DNA from: a virus | Virus record (IMG/VR): IMGVR_UViG_3300007559_000017 | Coordinates: 1-30,529 of that record | Strand: one strand, 5' to 3' | DNA: 30,529 nucleotides | Shown here: positions 2,814 through 20,099 of the stretch, piece after piece | How positions within the stretch are numbered: the stretch's first letter is position 1 | Layout of the letters: each line of letters starts with the position of its first letter | Position numbers and translations under genes: made by a program | Notes under the pieces: model-generated | The model's input: the letters and a program-made list of their open reading frames with translations, nothing else | What the model was told of the DNA's origin: nothing | The model's database searches: none

Positions 2814-2963
2814 ATGATTACATTAAGCGAAGAAAAGTTAAAAGAATTAGATGCATTCTTTCAAGAAATGCCTACTAAATTTGGTTTACCATTATTGCAA
2901 TTCTTTAGCAAATTAGCTGAAGAGCAAAAGCCAAAAGTAGAAGAAGCAGAAGTAGTAAATTAA
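2814..2963 (+). CDS. Small acidic helical protein (49 aa)
   Basis: ATG at 2814 follows the previous stop by two bases and the frame ends with TAA at 2961-2963. The 49-residue product begins MITLSEEKLKELDAFF and is predicted to be helical, with a Glu/Lys-rich tail ending KVEEAEVVN. A clear terminator follows at once, so this is the last gene of the fibre unit. No family is recognised. Tight spacing and codon pattern support a real gene. Confidence 0.6.
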   Translation: MITLSEEKLKELDAFFQEMPTKFGLPLLQFFSKLAEEQKPKVEEAEVVN

Positions 2964-2972
2964 CTAATAGAA

Positions 2973-3000
2973 AAGGGGTTAATAGCCCCTTACTATTTTT
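2973..3000 (+). terminator. Rho-independent terminator after the fibre genes
   Basis: The arms AAGGGG and CCCCTT form a six-base-pair stem with a seven-base loop, followed by ACTATTTTT. It lies 10 bp after the last fibre-unit stop codon and just before the holin gene, separating tail and lysis units in the rightward direction. Confidence 0.7.
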
Positions 3001-3010
3001 AACTCAACCA

Positions 3011-6424: not shown

Positions 6425-7111
6425 TTACAGTATAGGTCTAACAAATATTGATATTAATAAATCTCTTTGCTCTACAGCCTTCTCTATCTCTTCCATCATC
6501 TTCTTCTGAACAGCAATATCCCTCTTAATTAGCTTGTAGAATATTCTAGCTTCTAGGGGTAAATTTATTTCAATCTTGTTTCCATCATCATCATACTGAG
6601 TGCTTGTCAAGTAACGCACTAGGTAATGCTCTTCTACAGGAGAATGTCCTAGTGCCTCATTGGACTTAGATAGAGCCATCATCTGACACTGTGCTTGGTA
6701 GAAGTATTCTTTAGGCACGTCTTGGTACTCAGAATTCTTATCATCAAACATCATCATCTTCTGCTCAAAGAACTTCTCTGTAGGGCACTTGATATCTCCA
6801 CTAGCTATGATAACATCACCATCCATAACTGCGAAGTCGGGAGTAGCTCCACTATTCTCGTTGATAGGATAGTAACGCTCCTCTAGGTATATAGCATTAA
6901 TTCCTGTTGTTGCAACAAAGTTCTCTAGAGCCTCTGACTCGTTTAGAATACCATGGTCGGTGTGTCTGCTACTGAAAGACTTAGAGTAACCCTTAACACT
7001 CTCCTCTGCTTTATTAAATATGTACTTATCCTTGGTAGCACCCTTGCCACCTATGAATAAATTGTGAATACCCGATGCGGTAAATCTTCCTAGTCTCTCG
7101 TTGCTTAGCAT
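6425..7111 (-). CDS. YqaJ-like phage recombination exonuclease (PD-(D/E)XK)
   Basis: A 228-residue protein with the order of YqaJ/lambda-exo nucleases: N-terminal RLGRFTASGIHNL, then HGILNESEALENF (His53 and Glu58/Glu60), TPDF with Asp92, and GDIKCP with Asp106 and Lys108, followed by a Gln-rich helix (YFYQAQCQMMAL) typical of the family. These residues form the metal-dependent 5'-3' exonuclease site that makes ssDNA for annealing. The usual Glu of the E-x-K motif is Asp here. The gene is two genes downstream of the SSB-like gene in the same operon, forming a phage recombination/repair module with the RusA-like resolvase. Confidence 0.85.
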   Translation of the reverse strand: MLSNERLGRFTASGIHNLFIGGKGATKDKYIFNKAEESVKGYSKSFSSRHTDHGILNESEALENFVATTGINAIYLEERYYPINENSGATPDFAVMDGDVIIASGDIKCPTEKFFEQKMMMFDDKNSEYQDVPKEYFYQAQCQMMALSKSNEALGHSPVEEHYLVRYLTSTQYDDDGNKIEINLPLEARIFYKLIKRDIAVQKKMMEEIEKAVEQRDLLISIFVRPIL

Positions 7112-13995: not shown

Positions 13996-14787
13996 TTATG
14001 ATTTTGTACTCCAAGCAAGTGATTCATTACTATTTAAATCACAAGCAATCTCTATGTTGTTTAAGTGTGTTATTGCGCTATCGCATTGAATAGTTGGCTT
14101 ATTGAATATGTCTGAAGCATTGATATTAATAAAATCTCTTATAAATACTTGGTCTTCTAGAATAAATCCTAATCTATGCTTTAAAGACTCATTCTCTACT
14201 CTTAAAAGGTAGCCTAACTGTGAGAGCATTTGGTCTTCCATGTTTACATTCTTAATAATAAACTCCATGGTTTCGCCATCGATGTCTATAGTCTTTAACT
14301 CATTAATTGCATTGTGAACGATATCTCTAACACGTTTGTCATTCATGATGTATGTGCCACTATTTAAGAATTCCTGTCTATCTTTATAATCTTTGTAGAA
14401 TAACTCCATGCAATCTAGCTCAGACATTGTATCCACGTTAAACTTGCTCTCAGCAAATATGTTATAGACTTCAATTGCTTTGTCCCAAATAATGTCTAGC
14501 TCTCTAGTGTTAACACCAATGATGTTAGCCATGCAGAATACACCATACGAATTATGGTGATTGATTATCACTTCTTCAACTACAATATCTTCATCTTCAC
14601 ACTTTACATTGTATCTGCCAATGTTTAAATGGTTAATGATAGCTTGAATTTGAGCACAGTCATCTTCCGCCTCCCATCCCTTGCCTAAGACATTTTCTGC
14701 TACTTCTTCTAGATTGTTAATACCCACGAATGCGTTGGTTGAAAAGTAATTTCCTTCGATTGATTTTTTAATTTGATTGTTTGTCAT
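13996..14787 (-). CDS. Hypothetical phage protein downstream of hammerhead ribozyme A
   Basis: A 263-residue, mildly acidic, mostly helical protein with scattered Cys residues (EDDCAQIQAIINHLN, then ELDCMELFYKDYKD and VNMEDQMLSQLGYLLRVENESLKHR). I do not recognise it. Its start lies 35 bases downstream of the cleavage site of the ribozyme at 14817-14876, so cleaved mRNA would begin with a short A/U-rich leader and a 5'-OH. It is followed by the acidic protein genes. Confidence 0.65.
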   Translation of the reverse strand: MTNNQIKKSIEGNYFSTNAFVGINNLEEVAENVLGKGWEAEDDCAQIQAIINHLNIGRYNVKCEDEDIVVEEVIINHHNSYGVFCMANIIGVNTRELDIIWDKAIEVYNIFAESKFNVDTMSELDCMELFYKDYKDRQEFLNSGTYIMNDKRVRDIVHNAINELKTIDIDGETMEFIIKNVNMEDQMLSQLGYLLRVENESLKHRLGFILEDQVFIRDFININASDIFNKPTIQCDSAITHLNNIEIACDLNSNESLAWSTKS

Positions 14788-14816
14788 AATGATTGTTTTT
14801 TTTTAAGTGATTAATT

Positions 14817-14876
14817 GTTTAAGACAATTGGCGATTAAACCAATTGTTTCGACTATTAAAGTCTCGTCAGCTAAAC
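14817..14876 (-). ncRNA. Type I hammerhead ribozyme A
   Basis: Read on the minus strand from 14876: stem I 5' arm GUUUAG, core CUGACGA, stem II GACU-UUAAU-AGUC, core GAAA, stem III CAAUUGG-(8 nt)-CCAAUUG, then UC and the stem I 3' arm UUAAAC. Every invariant hammerhead core base is present, and G-U-C forms the cleavage triplet, so cleavage is predicted between 14823 and 14822. Stem I is open to both transcript ends, making it type I. It begins two bases after the DUF932 stop codon and ends 30 bases before the next start codon. All stems pair perfectly apart from one G-U in stem I. Confidence 0.93.
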
Positions 14877-14877
14877 T

Positions 14878-15780
14878 CTATGCGAAAGTGAATATTTTAT
14901 TATCCACAGTATTCTCGTTTACAAATTTCATAACCTCATCAAATGCAAGATTATTCATTTTGTATCCACCACCACTAACCAAGTAGTGTAGTTTGTCGTT
15001 CTCATCCTTTGGCGCACTAACGTGATTTGTGTAACGTGTAACGGCATTAAACAATCCCCATATCGTTTTACCTTCCAAGTTAATCTCGGTTTGTAAGGAG
15101 TCAGCAAAAGCGGTCACTTGGTTTAGCTTTCTACTGCTCACATCTTTTTTGTTTGTAGTCACGTCAATTGTGAATAACTTTCTGATTACACGTTCTACCA
15201 TCTCATCTTTTAACTCGATATCCGCCATCTTTTTAAAATTACCCATCAATACTTCATCTAGATGCAAAGCCTTGCGTAAATCAGCCATGGCAGTCTCAAT
15301 TCTAGACTTTGCTGATTCAGTATGTCTGAACTTGTCTAAATCTTTGTAGGCACGATGGAAAGTATTTTTGCATACTACCACTTGACTTGTTGACCCGAAT
15401 CCGATGGATGCACTACCATCGTTAGAATTCAAGGCAGTAATCCATCTCATGATAGATGATTTGCCTATGTACATAGATGGTAATGCGGCTTGTAAGTAAA
15501 CCTTCTTACCACCATCTAATTCTCCACCTCTCGTGGTTTCTAAACCGATGCCTTCAGTAGCTCCTACAATGGTTTCTGCTAACTCCCAATTCTGCATTGG
15601 CACATAACGATTACCTACACTGCCTAACCATGCATCAGTATCGTTTCTGAAGATACCAAATGTCTCAGTAGCTTTGCCATCTTTAGCGATTAACTCTTCT
15701 TTGCTTACTGACCAATTTAAATTAGTGCTTTCTAATAAATTGAAAGTCTTTTCTTGGATTGATTGATTGTTGTTTTTCAT
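14878..15780 (-). CDS. DUF932 family protein between two hammerhead ribozymes
   Basis: A 300-residue protein of the DUF932 / phage-plasmid TIGR03299-like family. Visible blocks include TNLNWSVSKEELIAKDGKA, SVGNRYVPMQNWELAETIVG, GLETTRGGELDGGKKVYLQ, then GSTSQVVVCKNTFHRA, TIWGLFNAVTRYTNH and the C-terminal LVSGGGYKMNNLAFD. Members occur on phages, plasmids and integrative elements; their biochemical role is not settled. It is the only gene here with a ribozyme on each side: copy B ends 23 bases upstream of the start and copy A begins right after the stop. Cleavage at both would release it as a separate mRNA. Confidence 0.85.
   Translation of the reverse strand: MKNNNQSIQEKTFNLLESTNLNWSVSKEELIAKDGKATETFGIFRNDTDAWLGSVGNRYVPMQNWELAETIVGATEGIGLETTRGGELDGGKKVYLQAALPSMYIGKSSIMRWITALNSNDGSASIGFGSTSQVVVCKNTFHRAYKDLDKFRHTESAKSRIETAMADLRKALHLDEVLMGNFKKMADIELKDEMVERVIRKLFTIDVTTNKKDVSSRKLNQVTAFADSLQTEINLEGKTIWGLFNAVTRYTNHVSAPKDENDKLHYLVSGGGYKMNNLAFDEVMKFVNENTVDNKIFTFA
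14900..14908 (+). promoter_or_regulatory. DnaA-box match inside DUF932
   Basis: TTATCCACA is a perfect match to the bacterial DnaA box (TTATNCACA). It lies within the end of the DUF932 coding region. A single copy in an AT-rich 30-kb sequence could be chance; it is listed because the phage encodes a DnaA domain IV-like protein. Confidence 0.25.
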
Positions 15781-15803
15781 GTTGTTTATTTATTTTTTTA
15801 ATT

Positions 15804-15859
15804 GTTTAAGACAAGGCTTTTATACCTTGTTTCGCATATTAAATGCTCATCAGTTAAAC
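15804..15859 (-). ncRNA. Type I hammerhead ribozyme B
   Basis: On the minus strand from 15859: stem I 5' arm GUUUAA, core CUGAUGA, stem II GCAU-UUAAU-AUGC, core GAAA, stem III CAAGG-(8 nt)-CCUUG, UC, then the stem I 3' arm UUAAAC. All core bases and the GUC triplet are present; predicted cleavage is between 15810 and 15809. Compared with copy A, stems II and III differ in sequence on both sides yet remain fully paired, which is covariation support for the RNA fold. Its first base is part of the stop codon of the preceding gene, and the DUF932 start follows the cleavage site by 29 bases. Confidence 0.94.
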
Positions 15860-16020
15860 TATTGGACATTGTCTCTATAATAGTTAGCTATACTTATTAC
15901 TTCCAATGCTAACTGCTCACTAGACATCTTTGCCAAGCTAACTACATCTTTTACTGTCTCGAATTCGTCAGATGCTAAATCCATAATAGCATCAATTAAT
16001 TTTTCTCTTATTGTTTCCAT
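15859..16020 (-). CDS. Small helical protein upstream of ribozyme B
   Basis: ATG at 16020 and TAG at 15859-15861 give 53 residues, mostly helical and amphipathic (METIREKLIDAIMDLASDEF, VSLAKMSSEQLALEVISIA). The TAG stop overlaps the first base of hammerhead ribozyme B, so the ribozyme occupies the gap from this stop to the DUF932 leader. No family is recognised. Confidence 0.6.
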   Translation of the reverse strand: METIREKLIDAIMDLASDEFETVKDVVSLAKMSSEQLALEVISIANYYRDNVQ

Positions 16021-16873: not shown

Positions 16874-16921
16874 GAGCATAGCATAGGAATCGAACCTATG
16901 CCTTGAACCATTTATGCTATG
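16874..16921 (-). ncRNA. tRNA T-arm-like minihelix
   Basis: On the minus strand, GCATAGG-TTCGATT-CCTATGC (16901-16881) is a perfect T-arm with a canonical seven-base T-loop (G53-TTCRANY-C61 pattern). The flanking arms CATAGCATA (16921-16913) and TATGCTATG (16885-16877) are perfect complements and can form an acceptor-like stem. There is no D-arm or anticodon arm, so this is not a functional tRNA. It lies between two genes of the long leftward operon. It could be a tRNA-like processing signal or the 3' end of a host tRNA carried as an attachment site. Confidence 0.5.
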
Positions 16922-18789: not shown

Positions 18790-19476
18790 TTAGTGAGCGT
18801 ACTTGTATATAGACTTCAAAGATAGCGATATGCCGTTCTCTAGCAACCTCCTTTGTATCTCTGCCTTGGGGACATTATTCTGGGAGTACGCTTTGATTAG
18901 TTCTATACCTACGTTAGACTTCTTAACGTAAGTTCTTTTCTTGGCTATCTCTGCCATTAGTATTTTTGCTTTCTCTGGGTCTTGCATTTCAGGATTGCCC
19001 AGTGACTTGATAATGCGTCCATTCTTTGTTACATGGAATCCGTTCTTCTGTATACGAACCTTTATTGAGTTTAGTCCTGCTGCTGTTCTTTCTGATATCA
19101 TCACTCTTTCTCTTTCTGCCATAGAGCCGAACAGGTGGATAGAGAAGTTGTCCATCTCTGGTGCATCAGCACACTTGAATTGTACCTTACTATCCATTAG
19201 GTTTGCTATGAAACTTATGCTACGAGACAACCTATCTAACTTTGCCACGAGTAGTATTGCCTTCTCTCTTTTACACAAATTTATTGCCTCTCTTAACTTG
19301 GGTCTATCGCTCTTCTTTCCTGACTCAATTTCAGTAAAGGTTGCTAGTACTATCCCCTTGTTTGTTATTGGTAATACCATTTGTTCTTGTGCCTCTAGTC
19401 CTAGTCCGCTGTTGGCTTGTTTGTCTGTTGATACCCTGAAGTATGTGACGTAATTGTTGATTGTTGTGTGATTCAT
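18790..19476 (-). CDS. Small serine recombinase (resolvase/invertase family)
   Basis: A 228-residue protein. The N-terminal YFRVSTDKQ block contains Arg14 and the catalytic Ser16. KLDRLSRS carries the conserved active-site arginines, and ERERVMISERTAAGL is the long helix E. A C-terminal helix-turn-helix (about 185-227, NVGIELIKAYSQNNVPKAEI, then SLKSIYKYAH) reads DNA. The length matches small resolvase/invertase enzymes, not the large serine integrases. Reaction: concerted cleavage and strand rotation via a Ser-phosphate link. It could resolve, invert or integrate DNA; no partner sites were identified. It has its own promoter and terminator. Confidence 0.9.
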   Translation of the reverse strand: MNHTTINNYVTYFRVSTDKQANSGLGLEAQEQMVLPITNKGIVLATFTEIESGKKSDRPKLREAINLCKREKAILLVAKLDRLSRSISFIANLMDSKVQFKCADAPEMDNFSIHLFGSMAERERVMISERTAAGLNSIKVRIQKNGFHVTKNGRIIKSLGNPEMQDPEKAKILMAEIAKKRTYVKKSNVGIELIKAYSQNNVPKAEIQRRLLENGISLSLKSIYKYAH

Positions 19477-19488
19477 TTTCAGTTCTGA

Positions 19489-19620
19489 TTATTTATTTTT
19501 ATCTTTTTGTAATTTCTTTAACTCGTCCCTAAGCATTTGCTTTAGTCTTTCGTAATGACTAGCTGGAACTTTTTCCGATAGCACTATAGTAGGCTCGTTA
19601 TACATTGAAGGTCTTGCCAT
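19489..19620 (-). CDS. Small basic protein co-expressed with the recombinase
   Basis: ATG at 19620, TAA at 19489-19491, 43 residues. It starts MARPSMYNEPTIVLSEKVPA and continues with a basic helix (HYERLKQMLRDELKKLQ). The strand-helix layout resembles ribbon-helix-helix DNA-binding peptides. It is first after the promoter at 19644-19673 and directly upstream of the recombinase, so it might be an accessory factor or autoregulator of the cassette. Confidence 0.55.
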   Translation of the reverse strand: MARPSMYNEPTIVLSEKVPASHYERLKQMLRDELKKLQKDKNK

Positions 19621-19643
19621 ATGTTTTTATTATTATTATGGTA

Positions 19644-19673
19644 CAAATATAATTAAGTAGACTAAATAAACAA
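19644..19673 (-). promoter_or_regulatory. Leftward flavobacterial-type promoter (recombinase cassette)
   Basis: On the minus strand TTG (19673-19671), a 19-bp spacer and TATATTTG (19651-19644) match the consensus. The start codon of the 43-residue gene lies 23 bases downstream. Confidence 0.8.
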
Positions 19674-19680
19674 GTAAAAA

Positions 19681-19722
19681 AAAATAAAATAAATAAAATA
19701 ACCCTAGCAATCAATACTAGGG
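19681..19722 (-). terminator. Leftward terminator of the second leftward operon
   Basis: CCCTAG (19702-19707) and CTAGGG (19717-19722) form a perfect six-base-pair stem with a nine-base loop; on the minus strand it is followed by a T-rich run (TTATTTTATTTATTTTATTTT). It lies between the nuclease gene end and the recombinase promoter and insulates the two units. Confidence 0.65.
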
Positions 19723-19739
19723 CTGCTTGTACTTTTTTT

Positions 19740-20099
19740 TTATAATAACTTTATCATCGGGACTAATATTCCTTTACTTGTATTGTTGTCTCCTCCTAAT
19801 GTATACTTCTGGTTGTTTTTCATAAAGCATTCTCTAACTACCTCCTTTATAATCCTTGTTGGGACTATAATAGCAGTGCCATGCGTCTCTATTCTGTATA
19901 TCCAAATGTCTGCGGTGGTAATAGATATTCCACTTGGCTTGCCTCTTGAAAACACTTCTATAAATAGGTTGCCAGTCTTATGAGCCATTCTATCGCTCTT
20001 AACCTCTACCTTAAATGCTCCAGTGAATATTCCCTTTACCCAGTCTTCTGCCTCTTCGCCAAAAGCTAAGTCATGTGTAAATGAATTTGAGTGCTTCAT
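19740..20099 (-). CDS. PD-(D/E)XK nuclease-like phage protein
   Basis: A 119-residue protein. Start chosen at ATG 20099, because it has an A/G-rich leader (AAAGGAAAAGGAAAAAAAAA) just upstream; an in-frame ATG at 20153 would add 18 Lys/Asn-rich residues. The sequence has LAFGEEAEDWVKGIFTGAF, then KVEVKSDRMAHKTGNLFIEV, a Gly-rich SRGKPSGIS turn and ADIWIY. An acidic residue in the first helix, E-x-K in VEVK and a following IEV strand fit PD-(D/E)XK nucleases of phage, which cut or resolve DNA. Last gene of its operon. Confidence 0.65.
   Translation of the reverse strand: MKHSNSFTHDLAFGEEAEDWVKGIFTGAFKVEVKSDRMAHKTGNLFIEVFSRGKPSGISITTADIWIYRIETHGTAIIVPTRIIKEVVRECFMKNNQKYTLGGDNNTSKGILVPMIKLL

Follow-up and report, generated by a model that had tools for sequence, protein, structure and literature searches.

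Clusters of hammerhead ribozymes flanking single prophage genes or short blocks of genes were described by Perreault et al. in 2011, who proposed that they process transcripts to gene-length mRNAs and found that the flanked genes were of no constant identity; three of these arrays cleaved in vitro, and one cleaved in E. coli (PMC3088659). Different ribozyme classes share similar phage-associated locations (PMC10085705, 2023), and the role of phage hammerheads is still called an open question in reviews.

The window, the whole 30,529-nucleotide stretch of viral DNA analysed here, contains two same-strand hammerheads flanking a single phage gene, as in the published arrays, the gene being one for a DUF932 protein (Table 1). 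It differs from those arrays in that its hammerheads belong to one tight type I subfamily with invariant flanking A residues and exact placement at stop codons, a subfamily that reaches 15 cores in one viral record, can give way to a tRNA-like element in the same slot and recurs next to DUF932 genes. Judged by their sequence, copies A and B are real, complete type I hammerheads of the minus strand, which reads GUUUAA-CUGAUGA-GCAU(UUAAU)AUGC-GAAA-CAAGG..CCUUG-UC-UUAAAC in copy A and GUUUAG-CUGACGA-GACU(UUAAU)AGUC-GAAA-CAAUUGG..CCAAUUG-UC-UUAAAC in copy B. Each is composed of a 4-bp stem II with loop UUAAU, a stem III hairpin followed by UC directly 3′ of the closing G, and a 6-bp stem I that encloses the whole. 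Stem I of copy A has as its first base the G of the upstream gene’s TAG stop codon, and that of copy B starts one base past the DUF932 stop, with A14877 in between. An earlier note on this DNA had located both hammerheads correctly and had rightly described their stems as compensated between the copies, with stem II changing from GCAU/AUGC to GACU/AGUC and stem III likewise remaining paired. The 5′-OH ends it expected, at 15809 and 14822, agree with the cuts predicted from the sequence, and the precise setting that it gave the pair within the minus-strand operon, one on each side of DUF932, with copy A on the upstream stop codon and copy B just past the DUF932 stop, is borne out.

Table 1 Features of the hammerhead-flanked DUF932 locus, in coordinates of the window
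Feature	Position	Strand	Basis or remark
Anticodon-less tRNA-like element	16876..16918	−	Model R2, 34.1 bits, E 4.6e-7
53-aa ORF upstream	15859..16020	−	Stop codon overlaps copy A
A preceding copy A stem I	15860	−	A of the upstream TAG stop; invariant position, 164/164 listed complete motifs
Copy A, type I hammerhead	15804..15859	−	Upstream of DUF932; sequence and model R1
Copy A stem I	15859-15854/15809-15804	−	
Copy A core CUGAUGA	15853-15847	−	
Copy A stem II; GAAA	15846-15834; 15833-15830	−	
Copy A stem III; UC	15829-15812; 15811-15810	−	
Copy A predicted cut	15810/15809	−	
AA following copy A stem I	15802..15803	−	First A 164/164, second A 116/164 listed motifs
DUF932 gene, 300 aa	14878..15780	−	Bracketed by copies A and B; PF06067, E 1.6e-29
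A preceding copy B stem I	14877	−	Flanking-A test of listed motifs
Copy B, type I hammerhead	14817..14876	−	Downstream of DUF932; sequence, model R1 and sub-gathering RF00163
Copy B stem I	14876-14871/14822-14817	−	
Copy B core CUGACGA	14870-14864	−	
Copy B stem II; GAAA	14863-14851; 14850-14847	−	
Copy B stem III; UC	14846-14825; 14824-14823	−	
Copy B predicted cut	14823/14822	−	
AA following copy B stem I	14815..14816	−	Flanking-A test of listed motifs
263-aa ORF downstream of copy B	13996..14787	−	ORF list

A covariance model, R1, was built from 45 hammerheads of other viral contigs, leaving out the window and its relatives. It matched copy A at 66.3 bits (E 1.9e-14) and copy B at 59.2 bits (E 1.2e-12), the next-best match in the window scoring 11.3 bits. 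Rfam models at gathering scores gave no match to either copy in the window, and with a relaxed E-value copy B alone matched RF00163 (Hammerhead_1), at 28.2 bits against a cut-off of 34, with copy A unlisted. The window copies share the permutation, core and 6-bp stem I of RF00163, to which copy B aligns end to end, but both lie below its 34-bit cut-off. Copy B is also a weak match to RF03152 (RAGATH-1-hammerhead), a type I variant of bacteria and phages, at 25.4 bits against a cut-off of 56.3; the upstream hairpin and one-pair stem II of RF03152 are absent here. The type I hammerhead of Pseudomonas phage PaP3, which lies among small early genes, matched R1 at 31.0 bits (E 1.2e-4) and differs in being GC-rich, in having a stem I of 5 bp, with a mismatch in place of the sixth pair, and in lacking an A immediately before that stem. 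Rfam at gathering scores recovered only 1 of 58 perfect hammerheads of the A-flanked subfamily from twelve viral loci, so the miss of the window copies reflects a limit of the models, whose cut-offs hide the greater part of a common group of viral ribozymes. The covariance-model check proposed in the earlier note therefore divides, with no match from Rfam at gathering scores and strong R1 matches for both copies, and its suggestion that the lack of any such hit would refute the hammerheads would have misled, because Rfam cut-offs alone miss both.

To define the extent of the subfamily, a search pattern, CTGANGAGNNTTTAATANNCGAAAC, was used that constrains no more than the core, loop II and a part of stem II; the middle of stem II, the two other stems and the cleavage site are left free. 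This pattern, representing one loop sequence, occurs at no fewer than 118 viral loci, often with several hammerheads per locus, and a second loop II sequence occurs at 67 loci. The pair in the window, which the earlier note had considered unusual, is thus not special to this phage, and its arrangement is of a known kind, already reported in 2011 for hammerheads around single phage genes (PMC3088659). Among the unique matches listed, the middle of stem II pairs in 173 of 175 (35.5 expected by shuffling), and 164 of the 175 are complete type I hammerheads, compared with 8.1% after swapping 3′ halves. In all 164 complete motifs among the matches listed, an A lies directly before and another directly after stem I, and in these 164 no outer helix was found beyond stem I. 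A full descriptor requiring the core, three stems and a UH cleavage site was matched 220 times in 1.1 Mb of fetched sequence and 0 times once this sequence was reversed, which excludes a chance origin.

Stem I is exactly 6 bp long in 186 of 195 unique motifs, and the cleavage triplet is GUC or GUA in 191 of the 195, while stem sequences vary freely. All six stem I pairs change on both sides among the rows of R1; as these rows were chosen by a descriptor that requires pairing, their pair counts are not independent proof of covariation, which is provided by the 175-match test. A peripheral contact, suggested by the flanking A residues and the narrow range of loop II sequences, would take the place of the loop or bulge in stem I that classical fast hammerheads have. 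This A-flanked phage subfamily with a 6-bp stem I appears to be new; no paper on it was found in the open-licence literature, a comparison outside which the alignments of Perreault et al. fall. Cultured phages with a hammerhead of the subfamily include the Pelagibacter phages HTVC019P (at 2948-3008) and HTVC131P and Flavobacterium phage elemoC (at 17010-16950), and bacterial genomes with one include those of Aquimarina algiphila and Mucilaginibacter pedocola. HTVC019P (L191) has, in addition, a hammerhead-like core, CTGACGAGGACACGCAGACGCACAGTCCGAAAC, at about 950-1030, which is not type I by the descriptor and occupies the slot of a type I copy in the related contig L059.

The position of the hammerheads relative to genes, called by a simple longest-ORF rule on which all the placement counts rest, is narrowly defined. 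Intergenic positions account for 80% of 253 hammerheads, while positions drawn at random from the contigs concerned are intergenic in 16% of cases, and the hammerhead lies on the same strand as the upstream gene in 190 of 203 cases and as the downstream gene in 183 of 203. The median distance from the upstream stop codon to stem I is −1 nt (interquartile range −6 to +1), and that from stem I to the next start codon is 21 nt (15–33). All copies lie on a single strand in each of the 80 loci with two or more hammerheads. Three viral records hold 12 cores in 18.8 kb, 13 in 22.5 kb and 15 in 39.8 kb, with 0 cores on the opposite strand and 0 in the reversed-pattern control. These high-copy records (G002, G001 and G003) correspond to loci L067, L125 and L136, all cores of each lying on one strand. 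The occurrence of up to 15 one-strand cores per record, together with the exact stop and start placement, is new here.

Within the window, the DUF932 start codon lies 23 nt past copy A, and that of the 263-residue ORF lies 29 nt past stem I of copy B. The DUF932 product belongs to PHROG 1221, of the category unknown function, and its AlphaFold model, of moderate confidence, had no significant match in the PDB. Family searches gave no match for the 53-residue ORF or for the 263-residue ORF; other genes of the window have weak matches to Flavobacterium elemo and Cellulophaga phages, and megablast with the window found no near-identical named phage record. The genes adjoining hammerheads are generally small and diverse (median 87 residues; 237 downstream proteins in 187 clusters), as are the prophage genes beside hammerheads according to Perreault et al. 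(PMC3088659). With the window left out, a hammerhead adjoins 4 of 5 non-edge DUF932-like genes, compared with 13 of 137 other ORFs that are 250 or more residues long (Fisher p 7e-4), in a small sample of loci picked by hammerhead cores only, two of which (L098 and L078) are mutually related. In L171 the DUF932 protein is 48% identical to that of the window, and its gene has hammerheads on both sides, as in the window. The hammerhead-adjacent DUF932 genes are 21–48% identical to the window’s and are located at L171 4452-5459, L098 3163, L078 4660, L145 593 and L028 3836. Recurrence of hammerheads beside divergent DUF932 genes, as seen in these sequences, appears to be new.

The DUF932 operon also contains a different candidate processing element, which resembles a tRNA without its anticodon arm. 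It overlaps a stop codon, lies 29 nt before the next ATG and is predicted to fold into an acceptor stem (AGCAUA/UAUGCU), a linker (AAUGGUUCAAG) and a T-stem (GCAUAGG/CCUAUGC) with T-loop UUCGAUU. Elements of this type occupy the slot of copy B in four close relatives of the window (L003, L004, L005 and L298), whose DUF932 3′ ends are 87–94% identical to it in DNA sequence and in which CAUAAAUGGUUCAAGUGAGGGGUUCGAUUCCCCUCAUAUGUUC, or a close variant, stands in place of the hammerhead. The replacing element has an acceptor-like stem, a GG-bearing linker resembling a D-loop, a T-stem and the canonical UUCGAUU T-loop. Copy A is kept in L003 and L004, whereas in L005 DUF932 has no hammerhead before it, which makes the upstream hammerhead dispensable in some relatives. 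In a second lineage, a hammerhead in L064 corresponds to a tRNA-like element in L267 and L286, before homologous genes. Neither the element of the window nor the replacements of copy B contain a cloverleaf with an anticodon arm, ARAGORN finds none, and Rfam has no family for the tRNA-like element. Replacement of the hammerhead slot in the four relatives appears to be a new observation, and it would extend the sharing of locations by ribozyme classes (PMC10085705) to an element that is not a ribozyme. The earlier interpretation of the locus thus holds for the identity and placement of the hammerheads and fails on their rarity; it overlooked the invariant A residues, the tRNA-like replacement and the tRNA-like element of the window.

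The tRNA-like elements were identified with a descriptor that requires GG in the linker and a stricter T-loop, a looser version having been weak against loop controls. Their pairing was then tested with a pattern in which neither the acceptor nor the outer pairs of the T-stem were imposed. In the 110 unique usable matches, the T-stem pairs in 102, compared with 10.3 when tails are swapped, and the acceptor is at least 5 bp long in 93, compared with 1.5% with swapped tails. The alignment of the family is a gapless set of elements. The stacked acceptor and T-stem helix is 11–13 bp long in 105 of 115 elements, close to the 12 bp separating T-loop and 5′ end that bacterial RNase P is believed to measure (reviewed in PMC11143913). 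Like the minimal RNase P substrates covered there, the elements have an acceptor, a T arm and a canonical T-loop; those substrates are laboratory designs, whereas the elements are natural, viral and often multi-copy, and are putative substrates. Their placement is looser than that of the hammerheads (medians of 10 nt past the stop codon and 44 nt before the start), and contigs selected for them seldom carry hammerheads, which confines the overlap of the two systems to some phages. The family is apparently undescribed, being missed by ARAGORN and Rfam, and no paper on it was found in the open-licence literature.

In viral contigs the family is large, with an acceptor stem, an AAUGGUU linker, a T arm and a UUCGAUU loop. 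Its elements lie in L003 at 4579 and 6904, in L004 at 6795-6840 and in L005 at 4035 and 6895, and further ones in L057, L087, L101, L113, L183 and L189 and in L194-L312. One viral record (L216 1096-1771, minus strand; record G010 19241-20090) contains six elements about 150 bases apart, leaving little space for protein genes in between.

Copies A and B probably serve as self-cleaving type I hammerheads that punctuate an operon in a phage of a Flavobacteriia-like host. This reading rests on the sequence and covariation of the motif, the precision with which it is placed, its strand bias and recurrence, and the replacement found in its slot, together with the published cleavage of comparable phage arrays (PMC3088659). 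Once the minus-strand operon is transcribed, each hammerhead would fold only after the ribosome that terminates on the upstream gene has left, since stem I either overlaps that gene’s stop codon or starts right after it. Contacts of loop II (UUAAU) with the two flanking A residues would hold stem II to stem I, and each hammerhead would then cleave 3′ of GUC. The two cuts would free a one-gene DUF932 mRNA with a 5′-OH leader of about 30 nt (UUAAACAAUUAA...) and, as its 3′ end, the leftover hammerhead with a 2′,3′-cyclic phosphate, so that the message could be expressed and decay separately from its neighbours. The slot would also take other processing signals, and the tRNA-like element of the relatives is expected to be cut by RNase P, a 3′ endonuclease or both. 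Cleavage by itself leaves the benefit to the phage unspecified. Whether many phages have a modular intergenic RNA-processing set, in which a hammerhead and an anticodon-less tRNA-like minihelix, as a natural minimal substrate for tRNA processing, are interchangeable from slot to slot, we judge to be evenly balanced; if so, phage RNA would be diced by the phage’s own ribozymes or by host tRNA-processing enzymes. Fixed placement, high copy number, cultured members and the tRNA-like replacement make the operon-processing idea directly testable.

The same two cuts could instead yield a circular DUF932 RNA, if the UUAAAC at the 5′ end left by copy A paired with the GUUUAG of copy B and copy B then ligated the ends, as in retrozymes. 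Copies A and B have fully cross-compatible stem I strands, which makes the reaction chemically possible, and across contigs stem I is cross-compatible in 42.5% of comparisons within contigs and 7.6% between them, the corresponding values being 27.5% and 15.5% for stem II and 26.5% and 9.3% for inner stem III. Shared descent or a shared leader would explain this likeness equally well; unlike neighbours comprise 7 pairs compatible with circularisation and 7 compatible only with gene skipping, with no directional excess; in the relatives one partner is a tRNA-like element, which could not ligate in this way; and Perreault et al. sought circular products and saw none (PMC3088659). Circularisation is therefore improbable. 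In contigs L008-L183, copies of the same contig are more alike in stem I than in stems II and III, for which shared descent, a shared leader and a need for cross-pairing are all candidates.

There is similarly little likelihood that the hammerheads are small selfish or recombination-driven repeats, spreading between phage genes with no role in expression. Near-identical copies do occur within some contigs (L080, L090 and L031), and copies have been gained and lost between homologous slots, but the changes between stems are compensatory, the strand and the spacing from stop and start codons hardly vary, and an unrelated element can occupy the same slot. Least probable of all, and very unlikely, is that the structures are terminators or mRNA-end hairpins that resemble hammerheads and need no cleavage, as their intergenic position and stable stem III hairpin might suggest, since there is no terminator-like site at copy A or copy B and conservation of the core, cleavage triplet and flanking A residues while the stems vary is the opposite of what a plain hairpin needs. 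A search for a promoter or terminator explanation likewise gave nothing specific at either copy.

Two observations weigh against operon punctuation, the lack of an upstream hammerhead in L005 and the folding of copy B at the end of the DUF932 gene. In isolation, a competing structure (−14.8 kcal/mol) is favoured over the hammerhead (−13.3 kcal/mol), which becomes the best secondary structure once the bases upstream of stem I are omitted. Pairing is possible between the region of the DUF932 stop and the 5′ strand of copy B stem II (window 14850-14881, minus strand), through UAGAGUUU with AGACUUUA, and this competing pairing at the stop codon might couple cleavage by copy B to translation.
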